A DNA stretch of 50,508 bases, taken from Bacteroidetes bacterium GWA2_32_17. GTDB taxonomy: Bacteria > Bacteroidota > Bacteroidia > Bacteroidales > GWA2-32-17. Numbering within the stretch: position 1 is the first letter of the stretch; the number at the start of each line of letters is the position of its first letter. Below are positions 127 through 50,508 of this stretch, in pieces. Position numbers and translations under genes: made by a program. Below the pieces are notes generated by a model. It searched no databases. It saw only the letters and a list, made by a program, of their open reading frames with translations, and was not told the origin of the DNA. The stretch lies in contig MENF01000145.1 in the NCBI GenBank assembly GCA_001769035.1, positions 1-50,508 on the forward strand. The letters are read 5' to 3'.

Positions 127-996
127 TAGTATTTGTCTATAATGTCAGTGTCTGATTCATAATGTTCGAGTTTGAGGCATGCTTCAAACTCGAACATTAT
201 AGTGATCCCCAGAAAATTAACCTGACCCGAATAAGAAATGACGGTTAATTGCTTATACCATATACCCTTATACCTTATACCCATAAGTTCAGAATTATAA
301 ATATGACATAAATTTACATTTTTCTCGACTTTATAAACAGACACTATTTAGTGTTTGTCCATAATGTCCGATTTACTCACATTTATATTTATTTTTAAAG
401 GTGTTCGTGATACCGATAGCTATCGGCACGCTTCGATAAGTTCACGAATGAAAACAACGAAGTGGTTCGTGGGGACACGAACCACGGAGGAAAAAAATTA
501 GTGTAATTCGTGGCATATTTCTGACTTTATAGACAGACACTATTTAGTGTATGTCCATAAAGTCAGTGTCTGAACTATAATGTTCGAGTTTGAGGCATGC
601 GAAGTTTTGAAAACCAAGGAGTTTACTATAGTAAATGACAACAGACACTATTTAGTGTTTGTCCATAATGTCCGATTTACTCACATTTATATTTATTTTT
701 AAAGGTGTTCGTGATACCGATAGCTATCGGCACGCTTCGATAAGTTCACGAATGAAAACAACGAAGTGGTTCGTGGGGACACGAACCACGGAGGAAAAAA
801 ATTAGTGTAATTCGTGGCATATTTCTGACTTTATAGACAGACACTATTTAGTGTATGTCCATAAAGTCAGTGTCTGAACTATAATGTTCGAGTTTGAGGC
901 ATGCGAAGTTTTGAAAACCAAGGAGTTTACTATAGTAAATGACTGTTTTCAAAACGAGTATAACGAAAAAATCGGACATTATGGACAGACACTATT
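127..996. repeat. Array of five MITE-like TIR units in alternating orientation, each separated by TT (units 127-346, 349-542, 545-650, 653-846, 849-994)
   Basis: Each unit begins TAGT(G/A)T and ends CACTA; junctions all read CACTA-TT-TAGTG. Confidence 0.85.
337..943 (+). repeat. Perfect tandem duplication, period 304 bp
   Basis: 337-639 and 641-943 read identical by eye. Confidence 0.93.
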
Positions 997-21955: not shown

Positions 21956-22125
21956 TAGAGTCTGTCTATAAACTCTGTGTCTGATTTATAATGTTCGAGT
22001 TTGAGGCTTGCGAAGTTTTGAAAACCTCATTGCCATTGTTTGTGTCCTCACAAACAATGACGGAATGACCCCGTAGCGAAGCGTACTGGGGCATAACGAA
22101 AATCGGACATTCTAGACAGACACTA
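21956..22125 (-). repeat. MITE-like TIR element, single copy
   Basis: TAGAGTCTGTCTATAAACTC ... GACATTCTAGACAGACACTA, containing CCCCGTAGCGAAGCGTACTGGGG and CATTGTTTGTG-TCCT-CACAAACAATG hairpins. Confidence 0.82.
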
Positions 22126-33462: not shown

Positions 33463-33760
33463 TAGTGTCTGTCCATAATGTCCGATTTTTTCGTTATGCC
33501 CCAGTACGCTTCGCTACGGGGTAAACTTGTTTTGAAAACAGTCATTTACATTCCGCCATTGTTTGTGTCCTCACAAACAAAGCGTGCATATTATATGCTC
33601 AAAAAGAGATTGCAAATCGTTTGTGAAGACACAAACGAAGGCAGTGAGGTTTTCAAAACTTCGCATGTTTACCCTGTAGAATTCCGATTTATCGGAATAT
33701 TCAACAGGGCCTCAAACTCGAACATTATAGTTCAGATACTGACTTTATATACAGACACTA
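33463..33760 (+). repeat. MITE-like TIR element upstream of the type IIG RM gene
   Basis: TAGTGTCTGTCCATAATGTCCGA ... CTGACTTTATATACAGACACTA; flanked by TAATTA on both sides if the termini are GTGTCTG/CAGACAC. Confidence 0.85.
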
Positions 33761-37518: not shown

Positions 37519-38499
37519 ATGCAAAAACATGATTTTACTTCACTAAACTCCGATTCAGATTTTAAAACTCTCGCATTAAAAACATTTAGCTTTCAAGCAA
37601 AAAATAATTTAGTTTATAAGGAATATCTTAAACTTTTAAATGTCATTCCCGAAAAAGTTGATGATATTAAAAAAATCCCATTTTTACCTGTAACATTTTT
37701 TAAAACTCATAAAATAAAATCGTTTAAAACAAAAGAAAATATTATATTTATAAGTAGTGGAACAACGGGCAACGAAACCTCGAAACACTATGTAAAAGAT
37801 TTAGAAATTTATAAAAAAAGTTTCGAATCGGCTTTTAAATTGTTTTACGGAAACATATCCGATTACTGCATTTTGGCACTATTACCTTCTTATTTGGAAA
37901 GAAATGGTTCTTCGTTAATTTATATGGTTAACGAACTTATTAAACAAAGTGAAAATAATTTGAGCGATTTTTACATTAACAATTTCGATGAACTCAATAA
38001 CAAATTGAAAATTTTATCAAAAAATAAACAGAAAACTATTTTGCTCGGTGTTAGTTTTGCTTTAATGGATTTTTCGGAAAAGTATCCTCAAAAACTTCCT
38101 AATAATTTTATTGTGATGGAAACTGGTGGTATGAAAGGACGAAGAAAAGAAATTACCCGCAATGAATTACATAAAACACTTTGCAATAAATTAGGGGTTA
38201 CTACAATTCATAGCGAATATGGTATGACAGAGTTATTATCGCAGGCATATTCGAAAGAAAATGGGATTTATTATTGTCCCCCGTGGATGAAAGTCATTAT
38301 TCGCGATACTTATGACCCATTCAGTTGTTTGCCAAACGAAAAAACTGGTGGAATAAATATTATTGACCTTGCAAACCAATATTCATGCTCTTTTATCGAA
38401 ACTCAAGATTTAGGGAAAACATATAATGACGGAGGTTTTGAGGTTATGGGCAGGTTTGACAATAGCCAAATTCGTGGTTGTAATATACTTATAAGCTAA
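37519..38499 (+). CDS. LuxE/acyl-protein synthetase-like protein
   Basis: 'IPFLPVTFFKTHKIKSF', 'ISSGTTGNETSKHYV', 'METGGMKGRRKEITRNELH', 'SEYGMTELLSQAYS'. Confidence 0.82.
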   Translation: MQKHDFTSLNSDSDFKTLALKTFSFQAKNNLVYKEYLKLLNVIPEKVDDIKKIPFLPVTFFKTHKIKSFKTKENIIFISSGTTGNETSKHYVKDLEIYKKSFESAFKLFYGNISDYCILALLPSYLERNGSSLIYMVNELIKQSENNLSDFYINNFDELNNKLKILSKNKQKTILLGVSFALMDFSEKYPQKLPNNFIVMETGGMKGRRKEITRNELHKTLCNKLGVTTIHSEYGMTELLSQAYSKENGIYYCPPWMKVIIRDTYDPFSCLPNEKTGGINIIDLANQYSCSFIETQDLGKTYNDGGFEVMGRFDNSQIRGCNILIS

Positions 38500-38500
38500 A

Positions 38501-38822
38501 TAGTGTTTGTCCATAATGTCCGATTTTCGTTATGCCCCAGTACGCTTCGCTACGGGGTCATTCCGTCATTGTTTGTGAGGACACAAACAATGGCAGTGAG
38601 GTTTTCAAAACTTCGCAAGCCTCAAATCCGATAGCTATCGGATCGAACATTACTCACATTTATATTGTTTTTTAAGGTGTTTGCCCTGTTAGATAGTTTA
38701 AAAAAAGAGCGAACAATAAAAGAACAATTATCTAACAGGGAGAATGAGATCGCGGAGTTTACACTGATCTTTGCGAATGTTCTAAGTTCTGAATCAAACA
38801 CTGACTTTATAGACAGACTCTA
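38501..38822 (+). repeat. MITE-like TIR element downstream of the LuxE-like gene, same orientation as the 33463 copy
   Basis: TAGTGTTTGTCCATAATGTCCGATTTTCGTTATGCCCCAGTACG ... CTGACTTTATAGACAGACTCTA. Confidence 0.84.
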
Positions 38823-38823
38823 A

Positions 38824-39912
38824 CTAATACCATTTATAAATTTTTAAACCTGTAAGAAAAACAATTAGTCCACTTGTAAATAAAATAACAATTGGTACAA
38901 TTACTTCATTTAGCCCTGCACCTTCGTTAATAACACTTCGTAAACTATCAGTAAAAAGGGTTAACGGTAAATATTTTATTATTTGTATTGCAAAATCCGG
39001 AAAATGATTATAACTAAAAAAAATACCCGAAAGTAACATCATAGGCATTGTAAATAAATTAACTAGTCCATTGCCAACCTGAGTATTTGATGTTCGTGAA
39101 GCTAAAAGAATAGCCAACCCCATAAAGAAAAAACAACCACTAATTAAAATTCCTGCAAATGCGAACATACTACCCTGAATTGTAATTCCAAAAACAATAC
39201 GGGCAAAAACAAGCAATACAACTACTTCGAGTATAGAAAAAGTAAAACGTGATAAAAACATTGTAAACATAAAAAGCGATTTTTTCATTGGAGTTGCAAC
39301 AATTCTTCGTAAAAGTTTTTTTGAACGTTTGCTAATTAAACTATAACTAATTCCCCACAAGCTGGAGCTCATTATTCCCATTGCTAACAAACCTGGCACT
39401 AAAAAATCAATATAACGCATACCTTTGGCTTCTAATGGTTTAATTATAGAATTGTCAGAAATTAATTTTTTATTGTCTATTGTTCCCGAAATTAAAATGT
39501 ATGCTAATCGTGATGATGCATTTGCAGGGTCGAAATAATAATTTACTTTTTTATTTTCTTCGGATATTATTATTTCTATTTGTCCTCGCTTCATCATTAA
39601 TTCACTTTCAGTTTTTGTAACAACTTGAAAATTAGAAATAGTTTTTCCGATATTATCGTTATTATTTATTATTTGATATTTATTTTTTAGTTTAGTGCAA
39701 TTTGTTTTAAGAAAATTTTTAAGAATTGAGTTTTCATTGTTTTGGGGTAAAATAACTGCAGCATTTTGCACTATTTCGGGTTTATCGGAAAAAGCCATTC
39801 CTAATGCAAGCGACATTAATATTGGAAAAATAAATGACCAAAATAATGCTCCGGGTTCACGAAAAAACTCTTTAAACTGAATTGATAAAAGTTGTGTGAA
39901 TTGCTTAATCAT
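38824..39912 (-). CDS. ABC transporter permease (ABC-2 type)
   Basis: 'FFREPGALFWSFIFPILMSLALG' and C-terminal TM block; adjacent to ATPase gene. Confidence 0.9.
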   Translation of the reverse strand: MIKQFTQLLSIQFKEFFREPGALFWSFIFPILMSLALGMAFSDKPEIVQNAAVILPQNNENSILKNFLKTNCTKLKNKYQIINNNDNIGKTISNFQVVTKTESELMMKRGQIEIIISEENKKVNYYFDPANASSRLAYILISGTIDNKKLISDNSIIKPLEAKGMRYIDFLVPGLLAMGIMSSSLWGISYSLISKRSKKLLRRIVATPMKKSLFMFTMFLSRFTFSILEVVVLLVFARIVFGITIQGSMFAFAGILISGCFFFMGLAILLASRTSNTQVGNGLVNLFTMPMMLLSGIFFSYNHFPDFAIQIIKYLPLTLFTDSLRSVINEGAGLNEVIVPIVILFTSGLIVFLTGLKIYKWY

Positions 39913-50383: not shown

Positions 50384-50508
50384 AAATTGGACATTATGGA
50401 CAAACACTATTTAGTGCCTGTCCATAAAGTCAAGAGTCTGAAATATAAAGTTCGATAACAAGGCTTGCGAAGTTTTGAAAACCTCACTGCCATTGTTTGT
50501 GTCCTCAC
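50384..50508 (-). repeat. Remnant plus start of further MITE-like copies, cut by the window end
   Basis: ATTGGACATTATGGACAAACACTA-TT-TAGTGCCTGTCCATAAAGTC...GCGAAGTTTTGAAAACCTCACTGCCATTGTTTGTGTCCTCAC. Confidence 0.8.

Follow-up and report, generated by a model that had tools for sequence, protein, structure and literature searches.

The end-to-end repeat units near the left end of contig C145 are very probably MITEs that were mobilised by insertion sequences (IS) of the ISNCY_1 type, and that formed arrays by re-insertion into their own TSD. The window analysed here is the entire contig (50,508 bp), which belongs to a 4.77-Mb MAG of 234 contigs (G000). It contains 17 TIR matches, compared to 0.04 expected, and its elements are 100–320 bp in length and carry no transposase gene.

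The array and other elements of the window

Five units lie end to end between nt 127 and 996, as described in the original prediction, and all of their internal junctions read CACTATTTAGTG. With TANNTA as the TSD, the edges of the units shift by two bases from those first proposed, and only three of the five are independent elements. The leftmost copy of the TSD, TATTTA (nt 123–128), is followed by unit 1 (216 bp, A end left; nt 129–344, + strand), a first TATTTA junction (nt 345–350), unit 2 (190 bp, B end left; nt 351–540, − strand) and a second TATTTA junction (nt 541–546). Unit 3 (nt 547–648, + strand) and unit 4 (nt 655–844, − strand) are separated by TATTTA at nt 649–654, and a further TATTTA (nt 845–850) leads to unit 5, a 142 bp element of the standard class (A end left; nt 851–992, + strand). 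The rightmost TSD copy, again TATTTA, occupies nt 993–998, and the flank after it has the favoured outer G at nt 999. A possible sixth element at nt 990–1001 was rejected, as this is the boundary between element and right flank, where the flank starts GTGCACG by chance and no TIR is present.

The array includes a perfect tandem duplication of 304 bp, the copies of which (nt 336–639 and 640–943, both + strand) are identical over the exact period; it is present in this assembly, a single draft. The duplicated block comprises the final nine bases of unit 1, the whole of unit 2 and most of a unit-5-type element. The junctions near nt 651 and 847 are therefore copies of those near nt 347 and 543, while unit 3 is a chimera (a unit-5-type head followed by the 9 bp that end unit 1) and unit 4 duplicates unit 2, so that neither represents an independent insertion. 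The window array consists of three independent elements with two independent internal junctions. Three insertions at one TATTTA and one 304-bp duplication explain the five alternating units, and in the sequence of events proposed here the duplication would have come after the insertions. The alternating orientation noted earlier derives in part, in the window, from the duplication. It is not a rule, as most other arrays do not alternate, and of 15 neighbour pairs that could be typed about 11 share one orientation (two-sided binomial about 0.12, not significant).

Three other elements of the window are solitary rather than arrayed. The first (nt 21958–22123, + strand) has diverged flanks, TAAATA and TATTTT, the second (nt 33465–33758, − strand) has TAATTA on both sides, and the third (nt 38503–38820, − strand) has flanks one base apart, TAAATA and TAACTA. 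At the right end of the contig (nt 50390–50508) there is a second junction, where the right end of a one-ended remnant reaches nt 50407, TATTTA occupies nt 50408–50413, and a new element begins at nt 50414 and runs off the contig. The same junction string had been predicted to recur at nt 50405–50416, and it does. The stop codons of neighbouring genes are supplied or overlapped by a MITE end or TSD at nt 22123–22125, 38497–38499 and 38824–38826; the terminal C of the element followed by TA gives TAG on the opposite strand, and TAA and TAG are found inside TAAATA and TAACTA.

Element boundaries and arrays across genomes

The 4.77-Mb genome carries 572 TIR ends, and TIR pairing over 1.27 Mb of it gave 133 paired elements, with a length mode of 142–143 bp. 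The elements are of the form GTG...CAC and are bounded by a 6-bp direct repeat, TANNTA. Of 77 elements flanked by TANNTA at left and right, 68 had identical hexamers, whereas shuffled right flanks gave a mean of 16.9 and a maximum of 29 (5000 trials). Several TSDs that depart from the consensus (TCATTA and TAATGA, as well as TAAATG in the same-order genome G060) are nonetheless duplicated exactly, and the faithful copying of hexamers that lack one TA means that the duplicated stretch spans 6 bp rather than just NN between fixed TA ends. This rules out the element boundaries of the original prediction (TAGTG...CACTA), which would imply a 2-bp NN duplication; the TA at each end of the element belongs to the target preference and not to the element. 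The description of the units as MITE-like came close; they are short, TIR-bounded, present in many copies, without a transposase gene, and have a uniform 6-bp TSD.

The 142-bp MITE is also present in other families of the order, at 90% identity in G060 and 77–79% in G013 and G055; loci in the range of 77–90% are L076 (G060), L088 (G013), L082 (G042) and L086 (G055). No TIR matches were found in two same-genus genomes, G001 and G004, and this patchy distribution suggests horizontal spread or loss. The 142-bp MITE (nt 851–992 of the window) is predicted to form a single hairpin over almost its whole length, with an energy of about −59 kcal/mol for the consensus. It is usually intergenic, and could have a role as a terminator or in RNA stability.

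Junctions of the type CAC-TANNTA-GTG (CACTANNTAGTG) occur 49 times across the genome, compared to 4 for a reversed-pattern control, and in two other TIR-bearing genomes the corresponding figures are 10 vs 0 (G002) and 14 vs 5 (G057). The TT that was reported as invariant is found in all junctions of the window, but among the 49 genome junctions the centre of TANNTA may be AT, TT/AA, AC/GT, AG/CT, TA or CA/TG, and the TT is simply the middle of the local TATTTA. The NN is constant within a locus and differs between loci (e.g. TAATTA in contig C12, TAAGTA in C70, TAGTTA in C53 and TATTTA in the window), and in every array tabulated the internal hexamer is the same as at least one outer flank. 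Array neighbours are usually unequal in length and so represent separate insertions. No nested insertions were seen. Orthologous empty sites were sought in four same-genus genomes, but flanking synteny is broken there and none could be read.

Target preference and array growth

Among 152 single-insertion ends, the base just beyond the TSD is C in 34%, compared to 9% at all TANNTA sites (p about 1e-17). Hidden neighbouring elements can be ruled out as the source of this signal, as C at position −3 is at the background level. The ends of autonomous IS (see below) show the same feature, with an outer C in 25 of 55 cases (45%), which is also far beyond chance. Sequential insertion was simulated on the sample, with its 2155 non-coding TANNTA sites as targets and with preference weights that came from the sample itself. 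A uniform choice of sites produced 7–10 junctions and a hexamer preference 8–12 (upper 95% limit 19), while hexamer and outer base together produced 47–65. The simulated sample contains 31 observed junctions, or 29 if the two copied by duplication are subtracted, which exceeds the output of all models that lack the outer base and falls short of the one that includes it. Breaks of contigs within arrays might account for the over-prediction.

These data are consistent with a mechanism in which the transposase would insert the element at TANNTA and duplicate the whole hexamer, favouring targets that have a C just 5' or a G just 3' of it. Insertion of a GTG...CAC element would leave two copies of TANNTA, each with the terminal C (or G) of the element on its inner side, and because the element ends in C, each insertion would re-create a favoured C-TANNTA target. 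Later copies would enter these TSDs, and successive insertions would build up the pattern element-TANNTA-element-TANNTA, with the hexamer of the locus at every junction. The original prediction of a defined insertion rule, in which the element inserts into its own terminus, came close, although the rule appears to be that new copies enter the TSD next to the terminus rather than the terminus itself. Growth in this way accounts for the arrays with no need of a circular or joined-end form. The target may well be self-regenerating, in the sense that the terminal C completes half of C-TANNTA-G, the local insertion rate rises, and arrays grow autocatalytically. If true, this would be a general and measurable mechanism for non-nested bacterial transposon arrays, to which an attraction by resident ends may possibly be added.

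Such an attraction, in which transposase on the end of a resident element draws in new insertions besides any effect of target sequence, similar to the preference of IS30 for its own inverted repeats, is an unlikely explanation of the arrays. The number of junctions is about 13–20 times that given by a uniform choice among all TANNTA sites, and 3–4 times that given by the non-coding sites, and the lack of nested insertions would also fit, but the outer-base preference measured at single insertions is by itself enough to yield more junctions than were observed, which makes an added attraction unnecessary. The five-unit structure of the window is quite unlikely to be an assembly artefact, produced by mis-joining of repeats at a contig end. 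The array is only 127 bp from the end of the contig, it includes the perfect 304-bp repeat, and many contigs of this MAG stop within these elements. Against this, assemblers collapse perfect repeats more often than they expand them, and arrays of the same architecture are found in the interior of contigs C12, C51, C70 and C121, as well as in other genomes, so that while the duplication could be affected by such an error, the array phenomenon could not.

An origin from the circular or joined-end intermediate of the original prediction, or from a tandem dimer, with a fixed spacer and integration as a unit, is very improbable. The exact spacing and the mild, non-significant excess of neighbour pairs in the same orientation would suit an origin of this kind; however, the junction bases follow the TSD of the locus rather than that of a donor, and vary between loci, and neighbours that are unequal in length are not dimers of one element. 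Targeting of a joined end (circle), as in IS30- or IS3-type elements, was rejected for a similar reason, the junction hexamer being the TSD of the locus.

Likely drivers and comparison with known systems

The MITEs are non-autonomous, and IS of the ISNCY_1 group (NF033593) are their likely drivers. In a genome of the same order (G031, Porphyromonadaceae bacterium PowLak16_MAG2), 66 bp separate a TIR end from the open transposase frame that follows it, and this frame gave a match to NCBIfam NF033593 (ISNCY_1). Full-length IS of about 1.62–1.9 kb (~1.65 kb), with the same TIRs and TANNTA TSDs, are present in other Bacteroidota and in other phyla, under the record labels Mariniphaga, Bacteroidales, Chitinophagaceae, Pararcticibacter, Neomarinimicrobiota and Anaerolineae. 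Those with identical TANNTA on both sides include L137, L142, L146, L147, L150 and L166, and an order-wide search added L107 and L110. Five transposases were tested, and all five scored above the NF033593 cut-off and had a DDE domain. TANNTA was found at 55 of 75 IS ends. The terminal bases of the MITE are identical to those of L139, L142, L146 and L110 at 17–18 of 18 positions, but similarity is confined to the terminal 18–32 bases, so none of the IS seen could have given rise to the interior of the MITE by simple deletion. An autonomous IS with the same TIRs, as sought by the original prediction, does exist outside the genus, while no autonomous IS or partner transposase was found in the MAG (which is incomplete and fragmented at these repeats) or in the genus. 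As no copy was found in either, it is the shared ends, TSD and target preference that point to the ISNCY_1 family, the transposase of which would have mobilised the window MITEs in trans.

Other families were considered. IS630/Tc1-mariner elements, brought to mind by the TA flanks, duplicate a 2-bp TA target, and a MITE of this type was rejected because the TSD is 6 bp; nor are the DDE_3 hits in the genome bounded by these TIRs, which excludes IS630 as the driver. Partly decayed IS630-type transposases (DDE_3), unrelated to these TIRs, occur at L053, L054 and L055 (contigs C111, C41 and C23). A pair of ends 3.8 kb apart in G048 does not delimit a full IS, as the hexamers differ (TATCTA and TAATTA) and the adjoining genes do not encode transposases. 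The ISDol1 group of ISNCY has duplications of 6–7 bp. The IS1202 family (ISAjo2 type) has a 5-bp TSD and TGT...ACA ends (PMC10132070), and membership of this family was rejected given the 6-bp TSD and GTG...CAC ends found here.

The NF033593 IS resemble the window elements in their TIR core (GTGTCTGTCYATAAAGTC or GAGTCTGTCC...), 6-bp TANNTA TSD and outer-C preference, but they are far longer, carry a transposase gene, and have only the ends in common with them. BrickBuilt and MITE293 of Porphyromonas gingivalis are likewise short, TIR-bounded, transposase-less and present in many copies, but the TIRs of BrickBuilt are of the IS5 type and its flanking duplications vary in length (PMC4596501), in contrast to the uniform TSD and frequent TSD-sharing arrays seen here. 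In the SaTar arrays of guayule and rice, small non-autonomous MULEs also lie end to end and are not nested, and the authors stated that such arrays were undescribed in eukaryotes or prokaryotes; their targets, however, are microsatellites (PMC5907723), while in the current study the target is the element's own TSD. Tandem IS insertion and CRISPR spacer integration both re-use a duplicated target to produce unit-TSD-unit arrays (PMC6977970). CRISPR arrays differ in being head-to-tail, made by a dedicated integrase and restricted to one locus, whereas here orientation is free, many loci are involved, and a one-base target preference suffices. The literature searched, which did not extend to most subscription journals or ISfinder, contained no text on the TANNTA target or these TIRs.

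Tandem IS insertion is already known, and the array is a tidy bacterial example of a familiar kind of process rather than a new kind of element; what appears to be new is a MITE/IS family in which the end of the element restores one half of the favoured target. The C-TANNTA-G target together with GTG...CAC ends provides a concrete, quantitative rule for the end-to-end alignment of these elements, and one that could be tested by a simple transposition assay. It would also connect a heavy load of MITEs in Bacteroidales with a group of IS that is poorly characterised, and can be used for the correct annotation of such repeats, which also appear to break the assembly of this MAG. Contigs of the MAG often start or stop inside these MITEs (window nt 123 and 50414–50508; C7:74, C9:75, C20:48, C21:76, and others), and the repeats are therefore probably behind much of its fragmentation into 234 contigs.
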